Positions 48,382 to 64,000 of a stretch of DNA of 64,000 nt are shown here, one piece after another. Origin of the DNA: Salipiger pallidus (lineage in GTDB: Bacteria; Pseudomonadota; Alphaproteobacteria; Rhodobacterales; Rhodobacteraceae). Each line of letters opens with the position of its first letter. The first letter of the stretch is position 1. A program made the position numbers and the translations under genes. Where the stretch lies: positions 248,001 to 312,000 of the forward strand of contig NZ_BMJV01000002.1 of the NCBI RefSeq assembly GCF_014643635.1, written 5' to 3'. The notes beneath the pieces are model-generated. The model worked only from the letters and a program-made list of their open reading frames with translations. It had not been told where the DNA came from and searched no databases.

Positions 48382-48471
48382 GGAGAGGTGGCCGAGTGGT
48401 CGAAGGCGCACGCCTGGAAAGTGTGTAGGCGGGGAACCGTCTCGAGGGTTCGAATCCCTTCCTCTCCGCCA
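48382..48471 (+). tRNA. tRNA-Ser (anticodon GGA)
   Basis: A 90-nt cloverleaf with the long class II variable arm of serine tRNAs. The acceptor stem is GGAGAGG / CCTCTCC with G discriminator and encoded CCA. The anticodon loop reads CTGGAAA (anticodon GGA), and the T-arm is GGTTCGAATCC. It decodes UCC/UCU. Its 3' end borders decayed mobile DNA, so it may have been an integration target. Confidence 0.96.
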
Positions 48472-48646
48472 CTAGGCATTGATATTCTCGATGGGAATCG
48501 ACGCCTGAGCGTATATCCCGCCAAGAAGCCGCCAACCTGAAAACGATTGGATGCTTCACTCTGCAGCGGCCTCAGTGCGCACTCCCTTCGGAGAAGCCGG
48601 TCCCATCTATTGCCGCATCCAGCAGGTTGCACCTCTATCCGCGCCA

Positions 48647-48912
48647 CGGGTACGGACCGGCGGGGGCTCTAACCCGCTCATCCTCATCGAACAGTTCACT
48701 TACCTGATGTTCGTCAGGCGGCTCGACGACCTGCGCGCCGCGCCGGAGCGCATGGCCGAGGATCTTGGCCGTCCGCTGGCGCGCCGCATCCTTCCCGAAG
48801 GCGTCGATGACAAGGGCGAGTCCTGCGACAATCTCCGCTGGTCCGCTCCCAGTCATTCGAGGCGCGTGAGATGATGCGCTTCGTGGAAGAGCACGTCTTC
48901 CCCGTCGCGCGG
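48647..48912 (+). pseudogene. hsdM-like type I methyltransferase fragment
   Basis: Remnant of the N-terminal domain of a type I restriction-modification methyltransferase. In one frame it reads TGGGSNPLILIEQFTYLMFV, then RRLDDLR, ILPEGVDDKGESCDNLRWS, matching the HsdM pattern around NPL-x-x-IEQ-x-TYL-x-F-x-RRLDDL. After a one-base loss near 48842-48844 the family sequence continues in another frame (SQSFEAREMMRFVEEHVFPVAR) and then stops abruptly at the IS3 fragment. The catalytic domain and the start are missing. Not functional. Confidence 0.7.
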
Positions 48913-49168
48913 TCTTCGAACGCCATAGGGCTGAGATAGCCCAACTTTGAGTGGCGTCGTCTCGAATTGTAGAGGCGCTTGATGTAGTCGACCACGTCGG
49001 CGCGTGCTGCGTCGCGGATAAGGGAGACCTTGCACGCTGTCCGCTCGGTCTTCAGCGAAGAGTAAAAGCTCTCCATCGCCGAGCTGCCCAGACATTACCT
49101 GCCCGGCTCATGGAGCGGGTGATGCCGCTTTTGAGCAGCAGGCGTTGGAACTGCTCGCTGGGATATCA
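48913..49168 (-). mobile_element. IS3-family transposase fragment (C-terminal, frameshifted)
   Basis: Minus-strand remnant of an orfB-type transposase (DDE integrase core). It reads YPSEQFQRLLLKSGITRSMS-RAGNVW. A one-base deletion at about 49080 then shifts the frame to MESFYSSLKTERT, DYIKRLYNSRRRHSKLGYLSPMAFE, which is the typical IS3 C-terminal end with the last catalytic Glu in MESF. The N-terminal part, the terminal inverted repeats and orfA are missing. Its truncated end abuts the hsdM remnant, indicating that a deletion or insertion joined them. Confidence 0.8.
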
Positions 49169-49389
49169 GGCGGATTCAAACGGTCGTCGCAACAGCCCGC
49201 AGTTGGAGGTGATGTTGATGTCGGGAAGACGGAAGTCGGAGCGCTCGCCACGACGCACCTTCTTCTCGGCAGGTCGGCCGCCAGTCTGACAGCCTGAGTA
49301 TCTTTGCCGGTTCTGGCGGGAGGTTGCGGCGGGGGTGCCCAGCGAGAAAGCCGCCGTAGCAGCCGGAGCTTTACCGACTGTCGGACCCG

Positions 49390-49600
49390 TTGGTTTTGGA
49401 GTCCTGGCGGAGCGCCTCCCACAGATCTCGCGCCATCGGCCTTTGTGCCAAACCAGCGCAGTCTTTCGTTCGTGGAACGCGAGGAGATAGCCCTTTAGGT
49501 GTGCTCGGGGCACCAGCGTGCGGGCAATCCCGTGCAAGCTGGGCCAATCACCCAGCACGATATCACGTGAGATTTGACCAAAGGAAACCGCGCAGTCACC
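49390..49600 (+). mobile_element. IS30-type transposase remains, multiply frameshifted
   Basis: Three short stretches in different plus-strand frames resemble the N-terminal region of IS30-family transposases: SRAIGLCAKPAQSF, SLSFVEREEIAL (compare L-x-EREEIS) and VRAIPCKLGQSPSTISREI, the helix-turn-helix with SPSTISREI, at 49518-49574. Stop codons and frameshifts separate them, and nothing of the catalytic core follows before the GntR gene. A dead fragment. Confidence 0.6.
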
Positions 49601-49638
49601 GCGTACAAGACGCAGTGAGTCGGAACGCGTGCAGTGCT

Positions 49639-50382
49639 CTATGCCAAATAAATTCGTATGCGCTCCGCCGCGTTCTGGAGGTGGCGTGCGGCGGCTTCTG
49701 CGGCGGCTTTTTCATCACCGTTTTTCAACGCGTCGTAGATGGCATTATGTTCGTCCTGAACCGCGTCCAAAAGGTCGGCATGATTGGTTTTCGTATTGCT
49801 GCGGGCTTGGCGGATGATATTGCGGGCGCTGGCCTCGAGATGCTGGCACAAGGAAATGAAATGCTGGTTGTGCGTGGCTTCAACGATGGCTTGGTGGAAC
49901 TGATAGTCTTCTTCGTCGCCTAGACGGTCGCTGGCGATGGCATATTCCATGCCGATCAGCGCGCGTTTGATTTTTTTCAAATCTTCTGGCGTGCGCCGCT
50001 TCGCGGCGAGACGTGTGGCCGCGACCTCGATGGTCACAAGAAGCTCCATAGCTTCTTCGAGGCGGTTCAGGTCTGAGACGGAGAAGTTCTGAAAGCGAAA
50101 GGCATTGGTGGAGTCGCGTTGTGTCACATACACGCCGCTGCCAGCGCGCGCCGCTACAAGGCCATCGGACTTAAGCTGTGACAGCGCCTCGCGCACGACA
50201 GCGCGGCTGACGGCATACTGTGTGCACAGATCGCGTTCCGAGGGAAGCCGGTCGCCGACGGACAAGACGCCAGAGGCAATTTTTGCGCTCAGGTCTTGTG
50301 CGATCTCGTCGGGCAAATGCCCATTGCGTGACCCCGTGCTCTTGCGTGGTTGGTCTGATGTGAGACGACTGGATATTGGCAT
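49639..50382 (-). CDS. GntR-family regulator with FCD ligand domain
   Basis: Transcription factor of 247 residues (FadR subfamily). The N-terminal winged helix has LSVGDRLPSERDLCTQYAVSRAVVREALSQLKSDGLV. The all-helical FCD domain keeps the usual metal or ligand residues: Asp/His in DEEDYQFHQAIV, His in DEHNAIYDAL and His in ARHLQNA, so a small carboxylate effector is likely. It is divergent from the transport operon, and two FadR-like sites lie in the gap. It most likely represses the operon and itself until inducer appears. It is the first intact gene after the mobile-element debris. Confidence 0.9.
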   Translation of the reverse strand: MPISSRLTSDQPRKSTGSRNGHLPDEIAQDLSAKIASGVLSVGDRLPSERDLCTQYAVSRAVVREALSQLKSDGLVAARAGSGVYVTQRDSTNAFRFQNFSVSDLNRLEEAMELLVTIEVAATRLAAKRRTPEDLKKIKRALIGMEYAIASDRLGDEEDYQFHQAIVEATHNQHFISLCQHLEASARNIIRQARSNTKTNHADLLDAVQDEHNAIYDALKNGDEKAAAEAAARHLQNAAERIRIYLA

Positions 50383-50413
50383 TTCTTCCCTTTATGCGGG
50401 TATCATACCTCAC

Positions 50414-50424
50414 TGGTCTGACAG
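50414..50424. promoter_or_regulatory. FadR-like operator, GntR-proximal
   Basis: TGGTCTGACAG, inside ACTGGTCTGACAGGTT, matches the GntR/FadR subfamily core T-N-G-T-N-N-N-A-C-N-A at all but the last base. It lies about 32 bp upstream of the regulator start codon, well placed for autoregulation. Confidence 0.5.
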
Positions 50425-50528
50425 GTTAAAGGTTATTTTATCGTTTAAAAACAATGAATTGATTTTTGATATGTGATAATTCACCCAAATTTTTGCGCTC
50501 AGATTAATTGGTCAGTTAGGTCGTTGAC

Positions 50529-50539
50529 TGGTAAGACCA
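50529..50539. promoter_or_regulatory. FadR-like operator upstream of the transport operon
   Basis: TGGTAAGACCA is a perfect inverted repeat (TGGT-N3-ACCA) fitting the FadR-subfamily core. It lies about 75 bp before the substrate-binding-protein start, in an AT-rich stretch that should hold the operon promoter; I could not settle the -35/-10 pair. Confidence 0.55.
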
Positions 50540-50612
50540 TTTTGTGTCATCACATGAAACGTCGAAGGGGTGGAGGATCCCTTCGCAGTCCAAATATGTG
50601 AGGGAGGACAGT

Positions 50613-51860
50613 ATGGGATTCCAGAAATTCGCACGCGGTACGGTGGCTATGGCACTGGTCATGGGGGCTGCGGCTGCAGCACAGGCAGAGCCTTTGAAGA
50701 TTGCTCTCGTGGAGACCCTCTCGGGTCCGCAGGCCTCGACCGGTTTGCTCTATCGCGATGCTGTGAAATATCAGATCGGCAAGATCAACGAGGCAGGCGG
50801 CTTCGGCGGTGAGCCAGTCGAACTGCTTGAGTTCGACAATCAAGGTGGCCCAGTGGGCGCCGCTGACCGCGTCCGCGCCGCGATTTCTGAAGGCGCCGAT
50901 GTGATCCTTCAGGGCTCGTCCTCCGCCGTGGCCGGTCAGGTGACGGAAGATGTGCGCAAACATAACCTGCGCAACGCGGGCGACGAGGTGCTCTACATCA
51001 ACCTGGGCGGCGAGGCGATGGAGTTGACCGGCTCCAAATGTCACTACTACCACTTCCGCACCAGCCCGAACGCCGCAATCCGCGTCAACACTTTGCTCGA
51101 TGGCATGAACGAAGCGGGCGTTCTGGGCGACAATGTCTACGCGATGAACCAGAACTATTCCTGGGGCGTGGATGTGCAGGACAACACAGTCGCGGCGTCT
51201 GATCGCCTCGGCTTTACCGTTGTCGAACAGACCCTGCATGACGTGAACAAGATTCAGGATTTTTCGCCCTACGTGCAACGTGTGCAGGCCGCAGGGGCCG
51301 ACACAGTGATCACCGGCAACTGGTCCAACGATCTGCTGCTTTTGATGAAAGCCGCCAGCGGCGCGGGGCTTGATGTGCGTTTTGGCACGGCCTTCCTCGA
51401 TCAGCCGGGCAACATCGGCAACGCCGGGTCCGTGGCCGAGGGGCATTTCCTCTCAGCGCCCTTCAACCCAGAAGTGAATCCGGAAGAAACCGCGGCCTTC
51501 ATGGAAGACTACAAATCTGTGACCGGCCACTACCCGAGCTATGTCGAACCGACGACCGTGTTTGGCATGATGCTCTTGCAAGCGGCGCTCGAAGAGGTTG
51601 AGCCGACCGAAGACGGTCTGAATGCCGCTGATCTGGCCGTCGCCCTGGAAAACGCCACCGCTGAGACGCCCATGGGCACCATCGCCATGCGTGGGGCGGA
51701 TCACCAGGCGATCCTGCCGATGATCGTCCAAGAGGTCAGCAAGGACGCCCAATACAAGGCCGATGACACCGAGTTGGGCTTTGTCCCAATCAAGGTCATC
51801 TCCGCCGCAGACGCGGAACAGCCCGTGCAGGACAGCTGCGAGATGAAGCGTCCGGGCTAA
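50613..51860 (+). CDS. HAAT-type ABC transporter substrate-binding protein
   Basis: Periplasmic binding protein of the branched-chain-amino-acid/amide family (LivK-like, type I fold), 415 residues. It has a signal peptide (MGFQKFARGTVAMALVMGAAAAAQA). The mature domain opens LKIALVETLSGPQASTG and continues with FGGEPVELLEFDNQGGP, VILQGSSSAVAGQ and YPSYVEPTTVFGMMLLQAALE. The family carries branched-chain amino acids, amides, urea and aromatic acids, so the ligand is open. The ATG at 50613 follows GGGAGGA. First gene of the operon. A two-Cys pair (KCHYY, DSCEMK) may form a disulfide. Confidence 0.9.
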   Translation: MGFQKFARGTVAMALVMGAAAAAQAEPLKIALVETLSGPQASTGLLYRDAVKYQIGKINEAGGFGGEPVELLEFDNQGGPVGAADRVRAAISEGADVILQGSSSAVAGQVTEDVRKHNLRNAGDEVLYINLGGEAMELTGSKCHYYHFRTSPNAAIRVNTLLDGMNEAGVLGDNVYAMNQNYSWGVDVQDNTVAASDRLGFTVVEQTLHDVNKIQDFSPYVQRVQAAGADTVITGNWSNDLLLLMKAASGAGLDVRFGTAFLDQPGNIGNAGSVAEGHFLSAPFNPEVNPEETAAFMEDYKSVTGHYPSYVEPTTVFGMMLLQAALEEVEPTEDGLNAADLAVALENATAETPMGTIAMRGADHQAILPMIVQEVSKDAQYKADDTELGFVPIKVISAADAEQPVQDSCEMKRPG

Positions 51861-51900
51861 GCCCTGACAATCCAGTTACACACGAAATGCATGTCGTGAT

Positions 51901-51918
51901 CGGGGCCTCAGGGCCCCG
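51901..51918 (+). promoter_or_regulatory. mRNA hairpin between binding protein and permease
   Basis: CGGGGCC-TCAG-GGCCCCG can form a 7-bp GC stem with a 4-base loop in the spacer after the binding-protein gene. No U-run follows. Such hairpins commonly protect the binding-protein mRNA and reduce read-through, setting a higher dose of the binding protein than of the permeases. Confidence 0.5.
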
Positions 51919-51956
51919 GTCAGGACAACGCTTACCGGATGCCTACGGAGGTCAGT

Positions 51957-52898
51957 GTGGACCAAATCCTTTTCGCTTTGCTCAACGGCACCATTTACGG
52001 GCTTTTGCTCTTTATGGTCTCCGCTGGTTTGACACTCATTTTCGGGATGATGGGGGTTTTGAACTTCGCCCACGCATCCTTTTACATGTTGGGCGCCTAT
52101 TTCGCCTACACGCTTCAGCCCCTGACCGGGTTCTGGCTGGCGATCATTCTGGCTCCGGTGCTTGTGATGGGGGTCGGCATTCTGGTCGAACGTTTCATCC
52201 TGCGCCACGTGCATGAACACGGCCATGCGCATGAATTGCTTGTGACCTTCGGTCTGTCGGTGGTGATCGCCGAGATGATCAAGATGGTCTACGGCAAGTT
52301 CGCGGTCGACTACCGCGTGCCGGCCGAGTTGAATTTTGCGGCCTTCACTTTGTCGGGCATCGACTATCCGTTTTATCGCCTTTTCATGGGCGGCATTGCC
52401 GTCGTCATGTTCATCGCGATCTATCTTCTGCTTACGAAAACCCGTGTGGGCATCGTCGTGCGTTCCGCCATTTATCGTCCGCAGATGGTCGAGGCACTGG
52501 GCCATAACGTACCCATGGTCTTCATGGGTGTGTTCGGCATCGGGGCGGCTTTGGCGGGACTTGCGGGCGCAGTCGCTGGCGCCTTCTACACCACCAACCC
52601 GAACATGGCTTTGGAACTCGGTGTCATGGTCTTTGTCGTCGTCGTGGTCGGCGGGCTCGGCTCCATGGGCGGCGCGATGGCAGCGTCCTTGTTGATTGGC
52701 ATCACCAATTCGCTCGCGGTCGGCAGCGATTTCCGCATCGCGGATCTCCTGACCTGGATTGGTATGGGAGGTTGGGCCGAAGAGATTGGCGGGATGTTGA
52801 CCATGCGCATGTCCAGTCTCGCCGCCACCCTGCCGTTCTTCATCATGCTTCTGGTGCTGGTGCTGCGCCCCTCCGGGCTGATGGGCGAGAAGGAATAA
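51957..52898 (+). CDS. HAAT-type ABC permease (LivH-like)
   Basis: Inner-membrane permease of 313 residues with about eight helices. It begins VDQILFALLNGTIYGLLLFMVSAGLTLIFGMMGVLNFAHASFYMLGAY, the LivH hallmark; the helix containing LIFGMMGVLNFAHA is invariant in the family. A later GGLGSMGGAMAASLLIG matches the coupling region. The GTG start at 51957 is preferred because GGAGG lies just upstream; an ATG at 51939 would place that site inside the gene. It pairs with the LivM-like gene that follows 4 bp later. Confidence 0.9.
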   Translation: MDQILFALLNGTIYGLLLFMVSAGLTLIFGMMGVLNFAHASFYMLGAYFAYTLQPLTGFWLAIILAPVLVMGVGILVERFILRHVHEHGHAHELLVTFGLSVVIAEMIKMVYGKFAVDYRVPAELNFAAFTLSGIDYPFYRLFMGGIAVVMFIAIYLLLTKTRVGIVVRSAIYRPQMVEALGHNVPMVFMGVFGIGAALAGLAGAVAGAFYTTNPNMALELGVMVFVVVVVGGLGSMGGAMAASLLIGITNSLAVGSDFRIADLLTWIGMGGWAEEIGGMLTMRMSSLAATLPFFIMLLVLVLRPSGLMGEKE

Positions 52899-52902
52899 CA
52901 CT

Positions 52903-54129
52903 ATGAAATACGCACCTCTACTTCTTTTGCTGACGGTCGCTGTGCTGGTCGCTCTGCCGTGGCTGGTCTCCGGCTCGATGTTGAACGCGGCTGTACAGAT
53001 GCTGATCGCGGCCCTGTTCGCAATGGCCTTTGGTCTGTTGTGCGGACAGGCGGGATTGCTGAGCTTCGGGCATGCCGCCTACTTTGGTGTCGGGGCTTTT
53101 GCGGCCGTTCATGCAATGAACGCCTTTGGAGGCGAGGGGCTCTTGCCGACACCGCTTTTGCCTCTCGTGGGCGGGGCCACGGGTCTCGTGAGCGGTCTTC
53201 TGGCAGGCTACTTTTCCACGAAGCGGACGGGCGTCTATTTCGCCATGATCACGCTGGCGCTGGCCGAGTTGCTCCATGCGTTGGCACCGCACCTTAAAAC
53301 CGTCTTTGGTGGTGAGGCGGGCGTGTCCTCTTTCCGTATGCCCGCTTGGGGTATCGGGTTCGGTTCGCTCAACGACGTCTATTTCCTGACGTTGGTCTGG
53401 ACGCTTCTGTGCATCGGTCTTTTGTATCTCTTTAGCAAAACCCCGCTCGGGCGGCTCGCGCTGGGTCTGAGGGAAAACGCGCATCGTCTGCGGTTTCTGG
53501 GCTACAACACCCATGCACTTGGCACGCTGATTTTTGCCGTCTCCGCCATGTTCGCGGGTGTCGCCGGTGCGCTTCAGTCAATGAACATTGAGGCGGCGAA
53601 CTATGTCGTCCTCGAGTCCCATATTTCGACGGCGGTCGTACTCAACAGCTTTATCGGCGGTGTGCGCGTCTTCCTCGGGCCGGCAATCGGCGGGGCGGTG
53701 ATGACCTTTTTCGGTCACGTGACGTCTGATTTGACCCGTGTATGGCTTTTGTATCAGGGCATCATCTTTGTGCTCGTTATGATGTTCTTGCCGCGTGGCA
53801 TCGTGGGTGAGTTGGTCGAGCGCCTGCGCAGCCCCGGCAGCGAGGGTTTTGCCGGTACACTTGGCACGACGCTCATGCGCCTTGCGAGCCTTGCGGTCGC
53901 GGCCTTCGGCGGTGTGTTCCTGGTCGAGTTCCTGCAGCGCTTTCTATCGGCCGAATACCGCGCGGGTGTGCAAGAGGGCATCTGGCCCAACATCACGCTT
54001 TTCTCTCACGACTGGGCGCCCCTGTCCGTTCTGCCCTGGGGCTTCGGGTTTGGTCTCTTCGGGCTCGGTATCGCGCTTGTCGTCATGGTCAACCGCCGCG
54101 TCGCGGCGCGCAAGGAGGCACAGGCATGA
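52903..54129 (+). CDS. HAAT-type ABC permease (LivM-like, C-terminally extended)
   Basis: Second permease subunit, 408 residues. The core (about 1-310) has the family signature GLLCGQAGLLSFGHAAYFGVGAFAA, plus GLRENAHRLRFLGYN and FIGGVRVFLGPAIGGAVM. Beyond the usual end it adds about 80-100 residues with two more hydrophobic segments (RLASLAVAAFGGVFLVEFL and LPWGFGFGLFGLGIALVVMV). This makes it longer than a typical LivM of about 320-350. Its ATG is 4 bp after the previous stop, and its 3' end overlaps the ATPase gene (ATGA). Confidence 0.9.
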   Translation: MKYAPLLLLLTVAVLVALPWLVSGSMLNAAVQMLIAALFAMAFGLLCGQAGLLSFGHAAYFGVGAFAAVHAMNAFGGEGLLPTPLLPLVGGATGLVSGLLAGYFSTKRTGVYFAMITLALAELLHALAPHLKTVFGGEAGVSSFRMPAWGIGFGSLNDVYFLTLVWTLLCIGLLYLFSKTPLGRLALGLRENAHRLRFLGYNTHALGTLIFAVSAMFAGVAGALQSMNIEAANYVVLESHISTAVVLNSFIGGVRVFLGPAIGGAVMTFFGHVTSDLTRVWLLYQGIIFVLVMMFLPRGIVGELVERLRSPGSEGFAGTLGTTLMRLASLAVAAFGGVFLVEFLQRFLSAEYRAGVQEGIWPNITLFSHDWAPLSVLPWGFGFGLFGLGIALVVMVNRRVAARKEAQA

Positions 54130-54878
54130 GCGATCCCATTCTGTCTTTGCAAAACGTCCACAAATCCTTCGGAGAGGCCCATATCATCCGGGATGCCAAT
54201 CTCGACGTGATCCCCGGCGAACGCCATGCGGTGATCGGGCCGAACGGGGCGGGCAAATCGACGTTGTTCCACCTCTGTTCCGGACAGTTCGCGCCTTCGG
54301 AAGGCAAGATCCTTCTGAACGGCACAAATATCGCCGGGCTGAAGCCGGCGGAGGTCAATCGTCGCGGTCTGGCGCGGTCTTTTCAGATCACCAACATCTT
54401 CCCGGGGGTGTCGGTCTTTGAGAACCTGCGCCTTGCGGTGATGCGCAAACACAACCTGCAATTCGTGTTCTGGCGCTCAGTCGCACGGTTACGCCGTGTC
54501 AATGCTGAGGTGGACGAACTCCTGACGAGAATCCGCCTGTCGGACCGCGCCTATTCTCTGGCCAGTCAGCTGTCCTATTCCGAACAGAGATCGCTGGAGA
54601 TCGGAATGACCCTTGCCTCCGACCCGCAGGTTATCCTTCTCGATGAACCAATGGCCGGCATGTCGCATGAGGAGACCAATTACACCGCCGGTCTGATCCG
54701 CGAGATCACCGAAGGGCGGACACTTTTGATCGTCGAGCACGATATGGGCGTGGTCTTTTCCTTGGCGCATCGGATCAGCGTTCTGGTCTACGGCGAGATC
54801 GTCGCGACCGGCACGCCCGAGGAAATCCGCGGCAACGCCCGCGTGAAAGAAGCCTATCTGGGCGAGGAGGCGGCATGA
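54126..54878 (+). CDS. HAAT-type ABC ATPase (LivG-like)
   Basis: Cytoplasmic ATP-binding subunit, 250 residues. Walker A is GPNGAGKSTLFHL; the family LivG stretch SFQITNIFPGVSVFENLRL follows. The signature motif is divergent (LSYSEQRSLEIGM rather than LSGGQ), and Walker B is PQVILLDEPMAGMS. The H-loop is in IVEHDMGVVFSL. The end carries VATGTPEEIRGNARVKEAYLGE, typical of LivG. It overlaps the permease gene before it and the next ATPase gene by 4 bases. Confidence 0.92.
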   Translation: MSDPILSLQNVHKSFGEAHIIRDANLDVIPGERHAVIGPNGAGKSTLFHLCSGQFAPSEGKILLNGTNIAGLKPAEVNRRGLARSFQITNIFPGVSVFENLRLAVMRKHNLQFVFWRSVARLRRVNAEVDELLTRIRLSDRAYSLASQLSYSEQRSLEIGMTLASDPQVILLDEPMAGMSHEETNYTAGLIREITEGRTLLIVEHDMGVVFSLAHRISVLVYGEIVATGTPEEIRGNARVKEAYLGEEAA

Positions 54879-55600
54879 TGGAGACTGTGAACCACACCAT
54901 TCTGTCCGTCGAGGGCCTGCACGCCCATTACGGCAAAAGTCACATCCTGCACGGCGTCAATTTCGACGTGGCCCGCGGGGAGGTCGTGAGCCTTCTGGGT
55001 CGCAACGGCTCCGGGCGCTCGACCACGATGAAGTCCATCATGGGGCTGGTGCCGCCGACCGAGGGCCATGTGCGCCTCGAGGGTGTCGATCTGGCCGGTC
55101 AGCGCAGCTTTGCGATCTGTCGCCAGGGCATCGGCTATGTGCCGGAAGAGCGCGAAATTTTCCTTAACCTCACTGTCGATGAGAACCTGGAGATGGGGCG
55201 TCAGAATGGACCGGAAGGTGCGCCGAAATGGGGCACTGAACAGATGTTCACCTATTTCCCGCGCCTCAAGGAACGCCGCAACACGCGTGCGGGCAGCCTT
55301 TCGGGCGGGGAGCAACAGATGCTCACCATGTGCCGCTCGCTTCTGGGCAACCCTCTGGTGATGCTGATCGATGAGCCAACCGAAGGCCTTGCGCCCAAGA
55401 TCGTGACGGTCGTCGGCGAGGTGATCGAAGATATCAATAAGCACGGGGTCTCTGTTGTGCTGGTGGAGCAGAAACTCACCATCGCCATGCAGGTCTCGCA
55501 TCGGGTCTGTGTCATGGGTCACGGCCAGATCGTTTTTGAGGGCACGCCCGATGAATTGAACGCCAGGCCGGAGATCTCTGACGAATGGCTCGCGGTGTAA
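54875..55600 (+). CDS. HAAT-type ABC ATPase (LivF-like) with Walker A Lys to Arg change
   Basis: Second ATP-binding subunit, 241 residues. The fold is clear: LLGRNGSGRSTTMKSIMG, YVPEEREIFLNLTVDENL, LSGGEQQMLTMCRSLLGNP, LVMLIDEPTEGLAPKIV and VVLVEQKLTIAMQ. In the Walker A loop the invariant nucleotide-binding Lys is Arg (R48 in G-R-N-G-S-G-R-S), read from CGC at 55016-55018. The signature, Walker B and Switch His/Gln positions look normal, so it is probably expressed and structured; asymmetric ATPase sites are known in ABC transporters. Overlaps livG by ATGA. Confidence 0.9.
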   Translation: MMETVNHTILSVEGLHAHYGKSHILHGVNFDVARGEVVSLLGRNGSGRSTTMKSIMGLVPPTEGHVRLEGVDLAGQRSFAICRQGIGYVPEEREIFLNLTVDENLEMGRQNGPEGAPKWGTEQMFTYFPRLKERRNTRAGSLSGGEQQMLTMCRSLLGNPLVMLIDEPTEGLAPKIVTVVGEVIEDINKHGVSVVLVEQKLTIAMQVSHRVCVMGHGQIVFEGTPDELNARPEISDEWLAV

Positions 55601-55613
55601 GGGAGAACGCGTG

Positions 55614-56108
55614 ATGACATCTGCAATGAACATGACGGCACCAATGGAAATGGGGCTGACCGTACGCGATCTGCCCAAGATGCTTGAGTTTTACCAACAG
55701 GCGTTCGGCCTTGAGATCATGGCCGATGTGACCGTCCCCGCCGAAAAAGCGGAGGTCGCGGCCTTGAGCCGGGGCGCTTACCGCGTTGTGCGGCTGCAAA
55801 CGCCTTGGGGGGAACGGATCAAATTGCTCGCGCCGGAGATCGCTCCGGCCGAGCGCCCCGCAGCAACGGACCACGTTCTGGACCGCCACGAAGCGACATA
55901 CCTGACCTTCATCGTCGACGATCTGCGCGCCGTCGTGGCCCGCGTGGTCGCGGCAGGCGGTACTTTGATGACGGGCAAAGAGCCAGTCGAAGTCCGGCCC
56001 GGCACCTTCCTCGCCTTCCTGCGCGACCCTGAGGGGCATATCGTCGAGATCGTCGAATATGCCGACATCACCGCGTATCGCACAGACCTTGCGGAGGGGT
56101 CGGCATGA
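55614..56108 (+). CDS. VOC-family (glyoxalase/dioxygenase fold) protein
   Basis: Vicinal-oxygen-chelate fold protein of 164 residues. It has two beta-alpha-beta-beta-beta units: the first with MEMGLTVRDLPKMLEFYQQAFGLE, the second with YLTFIVDDLRAVVARVVAAGGTL and the terminal strand FLAFLRDPEGHIVEIVEYAD, where Glu residues would bind metal. The family includes glyoxalases, epimerases and extradiol dioxygenases, so the reaction is open; isomerisation or ring chemistry on a pathway intermediate is plausible. GGGAG lies 8 bases before the ATG; a GTG at 55611 is an alternative. The 3' end overlaps the next SDR (ATGA). Confidence 0.8.
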   Translation: MTSAMNMTAPMEMGLTVRDLPKMLEFYQQAFGLEIMADVTVPAEKAEVAALSRGAYRVVRLQTPWGERIKLLAPEIAPAERPAATDHVLDRHEATYLTFIVDDLRAVVARVVAAGGTLMTGKEPVEVRPGTFLAFLRDPEGHIVEIVEYADITAYRTDLAEGSA

Positions 56109-56845
56109 TGTTCGATTTCACCAACCGCACGCTGGTTCTCACCGGCGCCAATGGTGGCATCGGCCGCGCCGTGGCCGAGCTCTTTCACGCGGCAGGCGCC
56201 AATCTGGTGCTGGCCGATGTCGATGGTGCCGCGCTGGCTGAATTTGCCGCCACGTTGACCTCTCCGAAAGGCGGCACGATTGAAACCCTCGCCGTGGATG
56301 CGGCCAATCCCGACGACGCGGATCGGATCGTCGCAGTCGCGACCAACCTCGGTGGCATCGACTTTCTCGTGCCCTCCGCCGGCATCTACATGGCGGAGCC
56401 TTTCGCCGAAATGACGGATGACCAGTGGCGCCGCACCCTCTCCATCAATCTCGATGGCGTCTTCTACCTCAGCCGCCGCGCGGTCGACCATTTGAAAGCC
56501 GGATCGTCCATCGTCAACCTGAGCTCGCTCGCCGCCCATCGCGGCGCCAAGACCAACGCGCATTATGGTGCCTCGAAAGGGGCCATTGGCGCCATGAGCC
56601 GCGCGCTGGCCAATGAGTTGGCGCCGAAAACGCGGGTCAACGTCGTGGCGCCTGGCGTGATCGACACGCCAATGACCCGCGATCTGATCGCGACACGGGG
56701 CGACGACACGCTCAGGCACACGCCGATGGGACGGACCGGACAAGCGTCCGAGATCGCCTCCGTCATCGCCTTCCTTTGCAGCGAAGCGGCAAGTTTTGTG
56801 AACGGCGAAACCATTCACGTCAACGGCGGCCTCTATATGAGCTGA
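56105..56845 (+). CDS. SDR dehydrogenase 1 of the catabolic operon
   Basis: Short-chain dehydrogenase/reductase of 246 residues with all usual catalytic elements: cofactor loop TGANGGIGRAV, Asp in LADVDG (suggesting NAD preference), NLSSLAAHRG for Ser, and the Y-x-x-x-K in HYGASKGAIGAM. The NNAG motif is replaced by PSAGIY. C-terminal GETIHVNGGLYMS. Probably oxidises a secondary alcohol of the imported compound or a derived intermediate. Its start overlaps the VOC stop. Confidence 0.85.
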   Translation: MMFDFTNRTLVLTGANGGIGRAVAELFHAAGANLVLADVDGAALAEFAATLTSPKGGTIETLAVDAANPDDADRIVAVATNLGGIDFLVPSAGIYMAEPFAEMTDDQWRRTLSINLDGVFYLSRRAVDHLKAGSSIVNLSSLAAHRGAKTNAHYGASKGAIGAMSRALANELAPKTRVNVVAPGVIDTPMTRDLIATRGDDTLRHTPMGRTGQASEIASVIAFLCSEAASFVNGETIHVNGGLYMS

Positions 56846-56926
56846 GCCAGCACACCACGCTAAAAACTGACTGTTTTCAACCCGGCGACCCGAGGAGGGC
56901 GTTTCCGGGACCGGAGGAGAATTATC

Positions 56927-57703
56927 ATGACCACCACGTTCGATTTCACCGGACGTACCGCGCTGGTGACAGGCGCTGCTTCCGGGCTCGGCCTCGCCAT
57001 GGCGCGCGCTTTCGTGGGCGCGGGTGCCAAGACCGTCCTTTTCGATCTGGACGAGGACGGCGTGCGGGAGGCCGAGCATGCGCTGAACGCGGATCACCCC
57101 GGACAGGTCACGGCACTTGCGGGCTCGATCACCGACACGGGCGCGGTCGAAGCGGCTTGCGAGGTGGCGGTGGCTTTCGGCGGGCGGCTCGATGTGGTGA
57201 TGAACAACGCGGGCATCTCCGGCAACGGGCCGTCTCTTGAATTGGACGAAACCACGTGGCGTCGGGGCATCGACATAAATCTCAACGGTGCGTTTTTCGT
57301 GGCCCAGGCCGCGGGTCGTGTCATGGCCGAACAAGGTGGCGGCAGCATCGTCAATACTGCCTCCATGTATGGTGTTGTCGCCGCCCCGGAACGTGCCGCC
57401 TATTGCGCCGCCAAGGCTGGCGTCGTGGCGCTCACAAAGGTGCTGGCCATCGAATGGGCTGACCGCAACATCCGCGTCAACGCCATCGCGCCCGGTTACG
57501 TGCGGACCGCGCTGACCGAAACGCTCGCTGCGCAAGGCCGCTTGGACCTTGCCTCTCTCAACGCGCGGGTGCCCGCGGGACGGCTCGGCACGCCCGAGGA
57601 AATCGCCTCCGCCTCCCTGTTTCTCGCTTCGGACGCCTCCGCCTATGTGACCGGTCAAACGCTGGTCGCCGATGGTGGCTGGTCCTCCTACAGCTATTTG
57701 TAA
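56927..57703 (+). CDS. SDR dehydrogenase 2 of the catabolic operon
   Basis: A second classical SDR of 258 residues, distinct from the first: TGAASGLGLAM cofactor loop, Asp in LFDLDEDG, MNNAGISGNG, NTASMYGVVAAPERAAYCAAKAG with the catalytic Tyr and Lys, and GQTLVADGGWSSYSYL at the end. An 81-bp spacer separates it from the first SDR, the largest internal gap of the operon. GGAGGAGAA precedes the ATG. Two SDRs imply two alcohol-oxidation steps or two stereochemistries. Confidence 0.87.
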   Translation: MTTTFDFTGRTALVTGAASGLGLAMARAFVGAGAKTVLFDLDEDGVREAEHALNADHPGQVTALAGSITDTGAVEAACEVAVAFGGRLDVVMNNAGISGNGPSLELDETTWRRGIDINLNGAFFVAQAAGRVMAEQGGGSIVNTASMYGVVAAPERAAYCAAKAGVVALTKVLAIEWADRNIRVNAIAPGYVRTALTETLAAQGRLDLASLNARVPAGRLGTPEEIASASLFLASDASAYVTGQTLVADGGWSSYSYL

Positions 57704-57715
57704 AGGACATCTCAC

Positions 57716-59917
57716 ATGCCGATCTATGCCGATCTGACGCCGAAAGCCTTCTGGCGTGACATCAAAGCCTCCAAAGAGGATCGCACCGAGCTTGACCCCA
57801 CCGTCGGGCGGACCATGCTGAGCCAATTGCACCTCATTCGCGCGTTCGAGGAAAAGGTTCTGGACCTTGCAGGGCAGGGGCTTGTGCACGGGCCTGCGCA
57901 CTCTGCGATTGGTCAGGAAGGCGGCGCCGTCGGCTCAGCGATGGCGATGCGTGGTTCTGATCAGGTCAACGGCTCGCACCGTGCGCACCACCAGTTCCTC
58001 GCCAAGGCTCTGGCCTATGCGGCACCCGAAGGGATCGACCCGGAAAAGAGCTTCGGCGAGACGCTGCGGCATCTGTCGAAACGCACCCTATCGGAAATTC
58101 TCGGGCTGTCTGAGGGCTTTTGCCAAGGGCGCGGTGGGTCCATGCACCTGCGTTGGGCCGAAAGTGGCAATCTTGGCACCAATGCGATCGTCGGCGGCGG
58201 TGTGCCCATGGCGGCGGGCGCGGCTTGGGCGCACAAACAGGCGGGCACGGGCGATGTCGTCTACACCTATTTTGGCGATGGTGCAGTCAACATTGGCTCT
58301 GTGCTGGAGACGATGAATATCGCCGCAGCATGGAAATTGCCGATCTGTTTCTTCATTGAAAACAACCGCTACGCCGTCTCCACCCATGTCGAGGAAGTCA
58401 CTGCAGAGACGCGGCTTTCGGCGCGCGGTCTGGCCTTTGGCATTCCGGCGCTGAAGGTGGACGGCATGGATACGCTGTCCGTGTATCTGGCCTCCGAGGA
58501 AGCCAACAAGATCATGCGCGCAGGCGAAGGCCCGGTGGTGATCGAGGCCGATGTATACCGCTATTTCCACCAAAACGGCGCGCTGCCGGGCTCGGCTTTC
58601 GGCTATCGCACGAAGGAAGAAGAGCTGGAATGGCAAGGCCGCGATCCGCTCGACGCCATGGCGCGCGACCTGATGGAACGTCAGATCATCGGTGCGCAGG
58701 CCGTTGAGGAGCTGCGCAATCAGGCGCAGCAAATGATGGAAGGGATCGCGGACGAGCTGATCGAAGAGGTCGACGGCAAACACCGCATCAAACCGGCGCT
58801 CTGGCCCGAAGAAAGCTTTCGGGATTTCGGTCTGCGTGGCGATCTGTCGGAATTCGACGGTGCGCGTTTCGAGGAGCAGGAAGCGTTTTCCGGCACGCTC
58901 AAGGACAACGTGAAATTCATCGATGCCGTGGCCGATGTGATGATGCGCCGGATGGAGACGGACGAGCGCGTCGTCGTCATGGGCGAGGATGTGCACCGGC
59001 TCAAAGGCGGCACCAATGGCGCCACCAAAGGGCTGTCGGACAAGTTTCCGGATCGTTGCCTCGGCACCCCGATTGCCGAAAACGCCTTCACGGGGCTCGC
59101 AGCAGGCATGGCCGCTGACGGGCGCGTGCGGCCAGTGATCGAATTCATGTACCCAGATTTTATGTGGGTTGCAGCGGATCAGGTGTTCAACCAGATCGGC
59201 AAGGCGCGTCACATGTTCGGCGGCGAGAATGCCATGCCTCTGGTGATGCGTACGAAAATCGCTATGGGCACAGGCTATGGCTCGCAGCACTCGATGGATC
59301 CTGCGGGCATCTTTGCGACCGCGCCAGGCTGGCGGATCGTCGCGCCCTCGACGCCCTACGATTACGTCGGGCTGATGAATGCGGCGCTTCAATGTGAGGA
59401 CCCGGTTCTGGTGATCGAACACGTCGATCTGTACGCCTCGAAGGGCGTCGGCTCGGCCGATGATCTCGACTACATGATCCCGCTGGGCAAGGCCAAAGTT
59501 GTCCGCGAAGGCGCCCGCGTCACCGTCCTGACCTATCTCGCCATGGTCAAAAAGACCCACGAGGTGGTGGAGCGCCTGGGTATTGACGCCGAGATCATCG
59601 ACCTGCGCAGCCTCGACCGTGCCGGGCTCGATTGGGAGACCATTGAGGCCTCCATCGAGAAAACCGGCAATGTGTTGATCGTCGAACAGGGCGCCTCTGG
59701 CACCTCCTATGGCGGCTGGCTTTCTGATGAGATCCAGCGTCGTTGTTTCGACTTCCTCGATCAGCCGATCAAACGGGTGCTTGGCTCCGAGGCCTCGCCC
59801 AGCATTTCCAAAGTCTTGGAGGCGGCGGCCTGCGCGCGTCCGCAAGACATCGAAACTGGCCTGCGCGAGGTCATGGCCGATCAGGGTCTGCCACTCGCGG
59901 CAGAGGCACCCGAATAA
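57716..59917 (+). CDS. Fused alpha-beta thiamine-diphosphate E1 dehydrogenase
   Basis: Both halves of a 2-oxo-acid or acetoin-type E1 in one 733-residue chain. Residues 1 to about 370 are the alpha part, with the ThDP motif GDGAVNIGSVLETMN (about 187) ending in ENN (about 215). Residues about 390-733 are the beta part (VVVMGEDVHRLKGGTNGATKGL, MYPDFMWVAADQVFNQIGKARHMFGG). The E1 active-site loop, normally Y-R-Y-x-G-H-S, reads Y-R-Y-F-H-Q-N-G-A-L-P-G (about 280-290). Fused, divergent E1s of this kind have no settled substrate. It lies 11 bp upstream of the E2 gene and 12 bp after SDR 2. Confidence 0.88.
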   Translation: MPIYADLTPKAFWRDIKASKEDRTELDPTVGRTMLSQLHLIRAFEEKVLDLAGQGLVHGPAHSAIGQEGGAVGSAMAMRGSDQVNGSHRAHHQFLAKALAYAAPEGIDPEKSFGETLRHLSKRTLSEILGLSEGFCQGRGGSMHLRWAESGNLGTNAIVGGGVPMAAGAAWAHKQAGTGDVVYTYFGDGAVNIGSVLETMNIAAAWKLPICFFIENNRYAVSTHVEEVTAETRLSARGLAFGIPALKVDGMDTLSVYLASEEANKIMRAGEGPVVIEADVYRYFHQNGALPGSAFGYRTKEEELEWQGRDPLDAMARDLMERQIIGAQAVEELRNQAQQMMEGIADELIEEVDGKHRIKPALWPEESFRDFGLRGDLSEFDGARFEEQEAFSGTLKDNVKFIDAVADVMMRRMETDERVVVMGEDVHRLKGGTNGATKGLSDKFPDRCLGTPIAENAFTGLAAGMAADGRVRPVIEFMYPDFMWVAADQVFNQIGKARHMFGGENAMPLVMRTKIAMGTGYGSQHSMDPAGIFATAPGWRIVAPSTPYDYVGLMNAALQCEDPVLVIEHVDLYASKGVGSADDLDYMIPLGKAKVVREGARVTVLTYLAMVKKTHEVVERLGIDAEIIDLRSLDRAGLDWETIEASIEKTGNVLIVEQGASGTSYGGWLSDEIQRRCFDFLDQPIKRVLGSEASPSISKVLEAAACARPQDIETGLREVMADQGLPLAAEAPE

Positions 59918-59928
59918 GGAGAGACACC

Positions 59929-61170
59929 ATGCCCAAGGAAATCATATTGCCCTCGCTCTCCGCCGGAATGGAAGACGCGGTGATCGCCAATTGGCTCAAG
60001 GCCGAAGGCGAGGCCGTGAAGGCGGGCGACCCATTGGCCGAGGTGGAAACTGACAAGGCGACAATGGAATTTGAGGCCGACACAGACGGGGTGTTGGGCA
60101 AGATCCTCACCCCAGCTGGCGAGCGCGCCGATGTGAATGCGGTCATCGCGGTTTTGTTGTTGGAGGGTGAAGACGCCTCCGTGCTGGACGGCTATTCGCC
60201 GGGGGACGCTGCGCCAGCCACAGAAGCGAAAACCGAAGCTCCTGTTGAGACTCCGAAAGCGGAAGCGACCCCAATTGCGGAATCCTCCGACAAGATCGCG
60301 GCCTCGCCACTCGCCCGCCGGATCGCGGCCCAGAAAGATGTCGATCTTTCGAGGCTTTCCGGGTCCGGCCCGCGCGGTCGCATCGTGCGCATCGATGTGG
60401 AACGCGCCGTCGAGGCCGGGGCTGTCGCTCCCGTGGCTGTAAGCCCTGTCGCCGCCGCTTCTGGGCCCGAGCTCGCGGACATTGGTGACTATGAGGCCCT
60501 CCCTCACACCGGCATGCGGCGCACCATCGCGCGGCGGTTGCTCGAGTCCAAAACCACCGTGCCGCATTTCTACCTTGAGGCCGATTGTGACATCGAAGCG
60601 CTCATGGCGCTCCGTGCCCAAATCAACGAGGGCCGTGAAAAGGCGGACCGGATCTCGGTCAATGATTTCATCATAAAAGCCGTCGCCAATGCGCTGGCCA
60701 AAGTGCCCGCCGCCAATGCGATTTGGACCGATGAGGCCGTATTGCGGCTCAAATCCATCGACATTTCCGTGGCGGTCGCAACCGATGGTGGCCTTATCAC
60801 ACCGGTCCTGCGCAATGCGGATCAAAAGAGCCTCGGCACGCTGTCTTCGGAGATGAAAGCACTGGCTGGCAAGGCGCGGGAGGGCCGTCTTAAGCCCGAC
60901 GAATACCAAGGTGGCGGCTTCTCGCTCTCGAACCTCGGTATGTATGGGGTCAAAAGCTTCTCAGCCATCATCAACCCGCCGCAGAGCTGCATCTTGGCCG
61001 TCGGAGCCGCCGAAAAACGCCCTGTCGGACGCGGCGATCAGATCGTGCTGGCGCCTGTCATGAGCGTGACGCTTTCGGTCGATCACCGCACCGTCGATGG
61101 CGCTGTGGGCGCGCAGTGGCTCGCAGCCTTCAAAAAGGGCATCGAGAGCCCGATGAGCCTGTTGGTGTAA
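59929..61170 (+). CDS. Dihydrolipoyl acyltransferase E2
   Basis: Transfers the acyl group made by E1 to CoA, 413 residues. The N-terminal lipoyl domain has the lipoylated Lys43 in VETDKATMEFEAD. A Thr/Ala/Glu-rich linker is followed by a peripheral-subunit-binding domain (ASPLARRIAAQKDVDLSRLSGSGPRGRIVR). The catalytic domain ends with SVDHRTVDGAVGAQW, where His386 and Asp390 form the CoA-acetyltransferase motif. The family includes pyruvate, branched-chain and acetoin E2s, and the substrate is set by E1. The ATG at 59929 follows AAGGAGAG. Confidence 0.92.
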   Translation: MPKEIILPSLSAGMEDAVIANWLKAEGEAVKAGDPLAEVETDKATMEFEADTDGVLGKILTPAGERADVNAVIAVLLLEGEDASVLDGYSPGDAAPATEAKTEAPVETPKAEATPIAESSDKIAASPLARRIAAQKDVDLSRLSGSGPRGRIVRIDVERAVEAGAVAPVAVSPVAAASGPELADIGDYEALPHTGMRRTIARRLLESKTTVPHFYLEADCDIEALMALRAQINEGREKADRISVNDFIIKAVANALAKVPAANAIWTDEAVLRLKSIDISVAVATDGGLITPVLRNADQKSLGTLSSEMKALAGKAREGRLKPDEYQGGGFSLSNLGMYGVKSFSAIINPPQSCILAVGAAEKRPVGRGDQIVLAPVMSVTLSVDHRTVDGAVGAQWLAAFKKGIESPMSLLV

Positions 61171-61171
61171 C

Positions 61172-61969
61172 ATGATCACAGGCCACACCAAAACGCTGGC
61201 GATCCTCGCCGATCCGGTCACCCATGTGCGCACGCCGCAGGCGCTCAATGCGCGGTTCGAGGCCGGGGGCGTGGACGCAGTTCTGGTCCCGCTGGAGGTA
61301 CCGTCTGCAGCACTCGAACCGATGCTCAAAGGCCTCGCTGGCGCGCGCAATTTCGCTGGCGCCGTGGTCACCGTTCCGCACAAAACCGCTGTGCCTGCGC
61401 TCTGCGATGGGCTGAGCGCGCGGGCGGCGGCGGCGCAAAGCGTCAATGTCATCAGGCGCAGGTCGGACGGGTCGCTATATGGCGATATCCTTGACGGCGA
61501 AGGCTTTGTACGCGGTCTGGAACAGGCGGGTGTGACGCTTTCTGGCAAGCGGGTGTTCCTTGCAGGCGCTGGCGGCGCAGCGAGTGCCATCGCCTTTGCT
61601 CTTGCAGAACGTGGCATTGCGGCGCTGACCGTTGCAAATCGCTCTGTTGCGAAAGCGGAGGCCCTGATCGCACGGCTGGCGGCGCATTTTTCCGATGTGG
61701 ACTTCGCCGCAGCCACGGACCCTGCCGGGCATGATATCGCGATCAACGGCACCTCGTTGGGGCTCAAGCCCGAGGATGCTCTGCCCTTCGATCCCAACAC
61801 ACTCGACCCCGGCACATTGGTCGCCGAGGTCATCATGCAGCCGGAGATCACGCCGCTTTTGCACTCTGCCGAGGCGCGTGGGCTGTCGATCCATCCGGGT
61901 CATCACATGTTGGAGGCCCAGTTGACGGAAATGCTGAGGTTTCTGACGCAGGAGGAGGAACAACAATGA
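61172..61969 (+). CDS. AroE-like dehydrogenase with altered substrate pocket
   Basis: Shikimate-dehydrogenase-family protein of 265 residues. It retains the catalytic Lys in VTVPHKTAV and Asp in YGDILDGEGFVRGL, the NADP loop LAGAGGAASAIAFALAERG, and NGTSLG. The Ser-x-Ser pair that holds the shikimate carboxylate in AroE is replaced by T-H-V-R-T-P, so shikimate is unlikely to be the natural substrate. It sits one base after E2 and overlaps the aldehyde dehydrogenase gene, clearly as part of the catabolic operon rather than the aromatic pathway. Possibly a hydroxy-acid or cyclitol dehydrogenase. Confidence 0.8.
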   Translation: MITGHTKTLAILADPVTHVRTPQALNARFEAGGVDAVLVPLEVPSAALEPMLKGLAGARNFAGAVVTVPHKTAVPALCDGLSARAAAAQSVNVIRRRSDGSLYGDILDGEGFVRGLEQAGVTLSGKRVFLAGAGGAASAIAFALAERGIAALTVANRSVAKAEALIARLAAHFSDVDFAAATDPAGHDIAINGTSLGLKPEDALPFDPNTLDPGTLVAEVIMQPEITPLLHSAEARGLSIHPGHHMLEAQLTEMLRFLTQEEEQQ

Positions 61970-63435
61970 GTTTGAGTTTGCGAGATCTGCGCGCCACTGG
62001 GCTTTTGCGCGATGCTAATCTGGTTGCCGGAGACTGGATCGAGGCTGACCCAAATACCGGCATTGCCGTGCGTAACCCCGCTGACGGCTCGCTGATCGGA
62101 TACGTCCCGAAACTGGGCCGCGCAGAAGTGGCCAAGGCCGTTAAGGCGGCCGAAGAGGCGCAAAAGACTTGGGCTGCGCGCACCGCGAAAGACCGCGCCA
62201 CTGTGCTGCGCACATGGTTCGATCTGATGATGGCGCATCGCGAAGCTCTGGCGCAGATCCTGACGCTGGAACAGGGCAAACCTTTGACGGAAGCCGCAGG
62301 CGAGATCACTTATGGCGCGAGCTTTGTCGAGTGGTTCGCCGAAGAAGCCCGCCGGGTCTACGGCGAGACCATTCCCGGCCATCAGCCCGACAAGCGCATT
62401 CTCGTGATGAAGCAACCCATCGGTGTTGTCGCCGCCATCACGCCGTGGAATTTCCCGAACGCGATGATCACCCGCAAGGCCGGACCTGCCTTTGCTGCGG
62501 GCTGTGGCATGGTGTTGAAACCTGCGTCGCAAACGCCTTATTCCGCCATCGCTTTGGCGGTTCTGGCCGAACGTGCCGGGCTTCCCAAGGGCCTTTTCAG
62601 CGTCATCACCGGCTCTGCCGCGCAGATCGGTGCCGAAATGACCGAGAACCCGGTGGTGCGCAAACTGACCTTTACCGGCTCTACAGAGATTGGCGCGATG
62701 CTCTACGCGCAATCAGCTTCGACGATCAAGAAGCTCGGGCTGGAACTTGGTGGCAATGCGCCATTTATCGTCTTCGATGATGCCGATCTCGACGCCGCTG
62801 TCGAAGGCGCTGTGATCGCGAAATTCCGTAACAATGGCCAGACCTGTGTCTGCGCCAATCGCATCTATGTGCAGGACGGGGTTTACGATGCCTTCGCCGA
62901 GAAACTCGTCAAGGCAGTTTCGCGGCTGCGCACCGGCAACGGTATGGAGAGCGGAGTCGAACTTGGCCCACTGATCGACGAGAGCGCACTTGAAAAAGTG
63001 CAAAACCACGTGACCGACGTGGTGGAAAAAGGCGGGCGGGTGCTTGCGGGCGGTAAACCCCATGGTCTGGGCGGCACTTTCTATGAGCCGACGGTTTTGG
63101 CCGATGTGACCTCCGAGATGGCGGTCGCGCGCGAAGAGACCTTTGGTCCCGTCGCACCGCTGTTCCGCTTCACGGAGGAGGCAGAGGCGATCCAAGCTGC
63201 CAATGACACAGAATTCGGCCTTGCCTCCTATTTCTACGCTCAGGATGTGGCGCGGATTTTCCGGGTCTCGGAAGGCCTGGAATACGGCATGGTCGGGGTC
63301 AACACCGGGCTGATCTCCACCGCTGAAGCGCCTTTCGGTGGGGTCAAAATGTCGGGCTTGGGCCGCGAAGGCTCGCGTCATGGCATCGAAGATTTCCTTG
63401 AGTTGAAATACGTGTGTTTGGGAAGCATCGCATGA
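61966..63435 (+). CDS. Aldehyde dehydrogenase, succinate-semialdehyde (GabD) type
   Basis: NAD(P)-dependent aldehyde dehydrogenase of 489 residues. Motifs include [47 protein letters not shown] with the catalytic Glu, and [11 protein letters not shown] with the nucleophile at about C294. The C-terminal [30 protein letters not shown] is typical of GabD. Family members oxidise semialdehydes such as succinate or glutarate semialdehyde to dicarboxylates. In this operon it probably oxidises an aldehyde released or exposed by the E1 reaction. It overlaps both neighbours by ATGA. Confidence 0.92.
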
Positions 63436-64000
63436 GCGGGGCGGATCAGAACTTCGACCTCATCGTCATTGGCGCCGGCCCTGGCGGCTATGTGGCCGCC
63501 ATTCGTGCGGCGCAGCTTGGCCTTAAGGTCGCCTGTGTCGAACGCGAGAACCTCGGTGGGGTTTGCCTGAACTGGGGCTGCATTCCGACCAAGGCGTTGT
63601 TGCGCTCTGCCGAGGTTTATCACCAGATTCACCGCGTCAAGGAGTTCGGCCTCTCGGTCGAGGGCGCGTCCTTCGATCTCGACGCCATCGTCAAGCGGTC
63701 GCGCGGCGTTGCGGCGCAGATGAACGGCGGCATCAAGGGCTTGTTCAAAAAGAACAAAGTCACCGCGATCATGGGGGAGGCCAAGCTGGCCGGGCAAGGC
63801 AAGGTCGAGGTCAAAACCAACCCGGGGCTGGAGAGCGAAACTGTCACGCTGACCGCCAAGAACATCATCTTCGCCACCGGCGCGCGTGCCCGCGAGCTGC
63901 CGGGGCTGGAGGCCGACGGTGATCTGGTCTGGACCTACCGCCACGCGTTGGTACCGACGCGGATGCCCAAGAAGTTGCTGGTCATCGGTTCGGGCGCCAT
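63432..64000 (+). CDS. lpd: Dihydrolipoamide dehydrogenase E3, N-terminal part (cut by window edge)
   Basis: Reoxidises the lipoyl groups of E2 using FAD, a disulfide and NAD+. About the first 189 residues are visible: FAD-binding DLIVIGAGPGGYVAAIRAAQLG, the redox-active disulfide C45-x4-C50 in GGVCLNWGCIPTK, and NIIFATGARARELPG. The gene continues beyond the right edge at the second Rossmann motif (KKLLVIGSGA). A dedicated E3 in the operon supports E1-E2-E3 as a self-contained complex. The start overlaps the aldehyde dehydrogenase stop. Confidence 0.93.
   Translation, partial: MSGADQNFDLIVIGAGPGGYVAAIRAAQLGLKVACVERENLGGVCLNWGCIPTKALLRSAEVYHQIHRVKEFGLSVEGASFDLDAIVKRSRGVAAQMNGGIKGLFKKNKVTAIMGEAKLAGQGKVEVKTNPGLESETVTLTAKNIIFATGARARELPGLEADGDLVWTYRHALVPTRMPKKLLVIGSGA

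Follow-up and report, generated by a model that had tools for sequence, protein, structure and literature searches.

The 64,000-nucleotide stretch of Salipiger pallidus DNA analyzed here (contig NZ_BMJV01000002.1, positions 248,001 to 312,000; the window) carries a tRNA-Ser (GGA) gene on the forward strand at 48382–48471, which marks an integration hotspot. It is followed by about 1.2 kb of decayed sequence (48472–49638) and by a catabolic operon that starts at 49639 and runs past the end of the window. The decayed interval contains three truncated and frameshifted mobile or defence remnants, all of them real and matching far above chance. A preliminary description made from the letters alone had listed an hsdM-like N-terminal piece, an IS3-type C-terminal piece on the opposite strand and IS30-type remains, all frameshifted; tblastn searches and the edges of DNA similarity confirmed all three. 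Since the pieces are also truncated, sequencing errors are ruled out as the cause of the broken frames.

The first remnant (48656–48912, forward strand) corresponds to residues 19–104 of a 512-residue HsdM-like protein and is frameshifted near 48844–48856. A Thioclava HsdM aligned with it in two frames, i.e., 48656–48856 in frame 3 and 48844–48912 in frame 2 (E 8e-29), and at the DNA level it is 76% identical to another genus genome, G017, over 48687–48906. The HsdM_N domain scored 12.8 bits in the window piece, below the curated cut-off of 24.5; the Thioclava relative, a gene named DNA methyltransferase, reached 58 bits with the hsdM model against a cut-off of 243. The methylase piece is hence described here as hsdM-like and truncated. 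Its closest hsdM-like relative (L042, G017 contig C56, 4406–9956) adjoins mcrB- and mcrC-like genes, which suggests that the window piece derives from a defence locus.

The second remnant (48907–49166, reverse strand) covers about residues 197–284 of a 286-residue IS3 OrfB and is frameshifted near 49088–49115. In tblastn, the OrfB from the same genome aligned at 49198–49088 in frame -2 and at 49115–48903 in frame -1 (best E 3e-27). The remnant is 84% identical to an intact copy on contig C4 of S. pallidus. This copy (L035) scored 349.6 bits against an IS3 OrfB cut-off of 160, and the window piece matched rve_2 at 7.4e-10. The IS3 element in the window is incomplete and lacks both ends, only 48907–49166 being left.

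The third remnant (49168–49574, forward strand, frameshifted) consists of an IS30 left end and the first 121 of 469 transposase codons, and lies inside the IS3 gene at HSDQGSQ^Y. An IS30 transposase aligned at 49212–49574 in frames 1 and 3 (E 1.6e-22, residues 1–121 of 469). An intact relative, L202, with whose first 121 residues the window piece can be aligned, scored 250.1 bits with the IS30 family model NF033563 (cut-off 80). The IS30 transposase has an N-terminal helix-turn-helix (HTH_38) and a DDE-type core with a weak rve match. Of the three elements, IS3 has an intact copy in the same genome, whereas IS30 is represented there only by the window piece and a C-terminal remnant on contig C11, and a DNA search gave no intact hsdM. 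About 180 bp behind the tRNA are mostly without identity, and similarity searches returned no match for most of 48472–48613; 16 bases (48539–48554, forward strand) are common to the window and genome G018, where they lie at a similar distance from the tRNA.

We located the joins between the remnants from the edges of DNA similarity. Similarity of the hsdM piece to G017 ends at 48906 and that of the IS3 piece to its intact copy starts at 48907, so that the join lies at 48906/48907; the preliminary description had placed it at 48908–48915 and was thus correct to within a few bases. The hsdM reading indeed ends at the IS3 coding end, as had been proposed. However, IS3 similarity starts 13 bases before the orfB stop of the intact copy, and the remainder beyond is absent. 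Because the last 13 orfB bases and everything beyond them are missing, this join is a deletion-type junction with loss of the IS3 tail and not an IS3 insertion boundary. At the other side, the IS3 piece stops at 49166, its first aligned residue being the Tyr after HSDQGSQ of the intact copy. In 16 of the 20 plasmid records listed (out of 40 matched), similarity to IS30 sets in at 49168/49169; it mostly ends at 49573. We therefore conclude that IS30 sits within the IS3 gene. The window boundary itself is decayed, the target duplication is not legible and the copy has no right end; still, IS30 within IS3 is the only boundary in the interval that looks like transposition.

Behind the debris, the operon begins with a GntR/FadR-type regulator gene (49639–50382, reverse strand; Celeribacter similarity starts at 49627–49648) and continues on the forward strand from 50544 through 64000 to about C2:312847, which is 847 bases beyond the end of the window. 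Its genes encode a branched-chain-type ABC importer, a VOC protein, two SDR proteins, fused E1, E2, an AroE-like protein, a semialdehyde dehydrogenase and E3. As a side observation, the operon (window 49639–64000 together with L038 1–2847) encodes a complete 2-oxoacid dehydrogenase set of fused E1, E2 and E3.

Five Celeribacter loci matched the operon over about 12.2 kb at 88.0 (L070), 88.8 (L071), 88.1 (L072), 82.0 (L074) and 86.5% (L075) identity, and the last operon part matched Celeribacter at 84–89%. The right edge (L038 2846–2847, C2:312847) was drawn from Celeribacter ethanolicus (G221) and Pseudodonghicola (G219) alone, because the other contigs end earlier. The ETF-QO genes of the same five Celeribacter genomes are only 75–76% identical to that of S. 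pallidus, compared with 82–89% for the operon. In Pseudodonghicola the contrast is small (81% for the operon against 79% for ETF-QO). Mean G+C is 0.607 in the operon and 0.659 in window 1–48000. As the operon is closer to Celeribacter than ETF-QO is and has a lower G+C content, the segment behind the debris is foreign and stems from a Celeribacter-like source. Within the genus, a comparable operon was found only in G008 (76%, on another contig), with more distant ones in G007, G012 and G018; in the family sample, two of 197 other genomes matched the operon start at E 1e-40. Most of the operon also occurs on a Phaeobacter inhibens plasmid (82% coverage, 81.9% identity), close to an IS21 element. 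The operon E3 gene matches four contigs of C. ethanolicus G221 (L181, L191) at an equal 89%, three of them with the same score, as if it had been recently duplicated there.

Just outside the window, the far end of the operon is also bordered by frame-broken IS3-type pieces (L038 2862–3639 and beyond). A composite transposon, in which left and right debris are two copies of one IS, was considered and rejected: the left debris has no match to L038, and the right pieces give their own rve and HTH_Tnp_1 matches. We likewise rejected that the debris had travelled with the operon, since the five Celeribacter loci and the Pseudodonghicola locus L073 match only from 49627–49649 onward and share nothing left of 49627. 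Further right, the gene block L038 4548–8390 occurs in ten of 19 genus relatives, located on contigs other than that of the tRNA or over 1 Mb away from it.

The 19 genus relatives were compared at the tRNA-Ser gene. All of them carry an ETF-QO gene directly upstream of it (81–87% identity). Downstream, similarity to the window ends at base 90–92 from the tRNA start in 17 of the 19, and extends to base 102 in G019 and to base 173 in G018. Four relatives (G002, G003, G011, G019) say little about downstream content because their contigs end 1.1–2.0 kb past the tRNA start. The relatives have tRNA-adjacent DNA in common only within two groups (G002 and G014; G003, G005, G010 and G015) and over 159–279 bp; apart from these stretches, their downstream DNA gives gene-level matches at 65–73%. 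G013 and G017 have weak integrase-type remnants there that score below the curated cut-offs, G011 has a phage portal gene, and G015 a recombinase some 4 kb farther on; by sequence appearance only, IS21- and IS3-like transposases are present in G004 and G016. In G009 (L062, contig C44), the open reading frames directly past the tRNA resemble, by eye, a ribosomal protein operon, unlike in the other relatives.

A GntR operon follows the tRNA in none of the 19 relatives; a shared tRNA-to-GntR arrangement free of mobile debris would have spoken against an island edge at this position. That reading, put forward in the preliminary description, is supported by the conserved tRNA and ETF-QO genes, the diverging downstream DNA and the foreign operon. 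The empty site that it hoped to find in related genomes is not definable, as the relatives have no common right flank. We also looked for core synteny right of the locus with the marker L065:3000–9000, and none was established: in relatives with tRNA and marker on one large contig (G001, G004, G015, G016, G018), the two lie 157–894 kb apart, compared with 56 kb in S. pallidus. The locus region is a mosaic.

Hotspots for tRNA-associated genomic islands combine foreign genes and variable content behind a conserved tRNA, and the S. pallidus locus resembles them in both respects: the relatives vary in what follows the tRNA 3' end, and the gene content is foreign. Debris and operon may accordingly have been brought together by an integrase-driven island at the tRNA 3' end whose integrase and att site have since disappeared or are located farther downstream. 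It would fit that 17 of 19 relatives diverge from the tRNA 3' end onward; the integrase-type remnants and recombinase in G013, G017 and G015 would fit too, as would a small tyrosine-recombinase/integrase-family gene of 176 amino acids (L038 13433–13963, reverse strand) in S. pallidus itself. The latter is the nearest PF00589 match (C2:323484–323948), lies 27 kb downstream of the tRNA and is beyond the operon. In contrast to typical islands, no exact direct repeat of the tRNA end of at least 14 bases was found in the next 70 kb, and no integrase-family gene between the tRNA and the operon end. Moreover, the Celeribacter loci share nothing left of 49627. We therefore regard an integrase-driven island as a doubtful explanation.

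The nesting of IS30 in IS3 was followed up with a comparison of related IS30 elements. It is not random: in 26 of 31 sites examined, members of this IS30 clade sit at a single codon of an IS3-family transposase gene (HSDxGxQ^Y), beside the second catalytic Asp. The sites were sampled irrespective of their flanks, but they are few, and the assignment of several flanks was visual. Flanks were compared at 18 loci: the window, three genome loci and 14 of the 40 matched plasmid records (20 listed). At 16 of them, an IS3-family transposase gene is interrupted at the motif, the exceptions being L210 and L041; at 13 of the 14 plasmid loci, phmmer with three IS3 proteins detected IS3 within the flanking 500 bp. 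Of 394 family genomes searched for the exact IS30 end, seven contained it, with 15 matches in total. Among the matches listed there were 13 distinct ends at ten sites, nine of them at the motif; L221 lies off the motif and shows no IS30 gene, and the contigs of G086 share one flank. The same exact end was found in none of 385 genomes of the wider class. Two viral contigs carry it (L231, L232), neither within IS3, and L232 is cut by the contig edge. Finally, a Rhodococcus plasmid element with 57.6% protein identity sits at HHSDAGSQ^YTS; motif insertions thus occur in two phyla, the second represented by this one case. L210, L041, L221, L231 and L232 are the five exceptions among the 31 sites.

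The 17 complete elements are flanked by a 3-bp duplication, CAA or CAG, which is the Gln codon or its complement. It is identical at both ends in 16 of the 17 and differs in L200. Inverted ends and 3-bp duplications in these relatives agree with membership in the IS30 family. As read from flank alignments, eleven complete elements lie in the sense of the IS3 gene and six in the opposite orientation. When the flanks of 13 loci were joined, the motif read straight through in 12 and the frame was broken in L204.

With these data, two simpler accounts of the recurrent position were weighed. Mobile elements gather in neutral DNA beside tRNA genes, and the window nesting might then have arisen by chance pile-up without special cause. 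The DNA flanking the tRNA is indeed variable across the whole genus, and five of the 31 IS30 sites lie elsewhere than at the IS3 motif. However, that 26 sites share one codon although their IS3 hosts are unrelated and both orientations occur is beyond chance, and four distant IS30 elements from related hosts (29.5–33% identity), used as controls, had no IS3 gene in their 500-bp flanks (0/4). We disfavour chance pile-up as highly improbable. Alternatively, IS3 copies already carrying IS30 might have moved as one unit, so that the position recurs without repeated targeting. Some IS3 hosts are indeed similar, with up to 89% identity, and the common flank of the G086 contigs points in the same direction. 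Against this, the 13 joined hosts form ten clusters when grouped at 80% identity and five when grouped at 60%, with IS30 in both orientations, and we consider one-unit movement very unlikely.

We therefore propose repeated targeting. This IS30 clade, which occurs across Alphaproteobacteria and in one case in Actinomycetota, is probably a site-specific parasite of IS3-family elements. It would recognize the DNA coding for HSDxGxQ^Y, where the IS3 catalytic core is most conserved, duplicate the Gln codon, split the transposase of its prey after the second catalytic residue and so gain a landing site in most genomes. The transposase presumably selects its target by DNA sequence, and its N-terminal helix-turn-helix domains may read the target. 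Conservation of the target is highest at CAR-TAY, at a GG that precedes CAR by five to six bases and at a TC that follows the junction by seven to eight; as the same positions form the motif codons, this table cannot separate DNA recognition from IS3 conservation. A more distant relative on an Acidisoma plasmid (L237, IS30 gene 1216–2367, 41%), left out of the 31 sites, also lies in IS3, but in the orfA codons KKA^AAYF, a stretch that is likewise conserved in IS3. This one case hints at an IS30 lineage with several IS3-specific sites.

IS30 itself prefers a palindromic hot spot and its own ends. The clade described here shares with the IS30 family (NF033563) the transposase, HTH_38, inverted ends and 3-bp duplications, and differs by a fixed target codon in another IS family. 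Elements landing in other elements are known as well, i.e., IS4321/IS5075 in Tn21-type ends, IS1383 in IS1384, and group II introns in IS. These likewise use one mobile element as landing site for another, but they target terminal repeats or single elements, whereas the IS30 clade uses one motif in many IS3 hosts. Strict targets are also found in REP-targeting IS, of which nearly all copies are reported to lie at one defined site (PMC1525189). The IS30 clade is similar in that nearly every copy is at one site; the REP target is non-coding and palindromic, in contrast to a protein-coding catalytic motif common to IS3 groups. In the full-text literature, subscription journals and ISfinder being outside the search, we found no description of IS30 elements that target IS3 genes; a prior description is possible. 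Strict-target and element-in-element IS are already known, and the IS30 targeting looks like a new form of such behaviour; the locus itself is ordinary debris.

For the locus, the following history appears very likely: the debris is a graveyard at a tRNA-Ser hotspot, in which a target-specific IS30 inserted into IS3, deletions followed, and a Celeribacter-like operon now adjoins. An hsdM fragment of a restriction locus and an IS3 copy would first have lain behind the tRNA. IS30 would then have entered the IS3 transposase gene between the Gln and Tyr codons after the second catalytic Asp (HSDxGxQ^Y). Since the IS3 piece starts at the target codon, we take the window nesting as an old product of the same targeting. 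Subsequent deletions would have joined hsdM to the IS3 tail and removed IS30 beyond about 406 bases. The Celeribacter-like operon now lies within about 75 bases of the IS30 cut, and IS-associated recombination may account for its entry.

If the targeting holds across a complete census, one transposon lineage exploits another via coding sequence that the prey cannot easily alter without losing catalysis. Such a hard-to-alter motif would offer a landing site in most genomes, each insertion breaking the host transposase after its second catalytic residue. The whereabouts of these elements would then be predictable, and a compact DDE transposase whose target is defined would be available for study. 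Of lesser weight is the locus, which clearly exemplifies a tRNA hotspot as well as a catabolic operon that was gained by horizontal transfer and has IS debris at its borders. As in the window, an IS3 end in decay adjoins this IS30 left end in another genome of the genus (G009, L045, contig C50, about 2147–2520).
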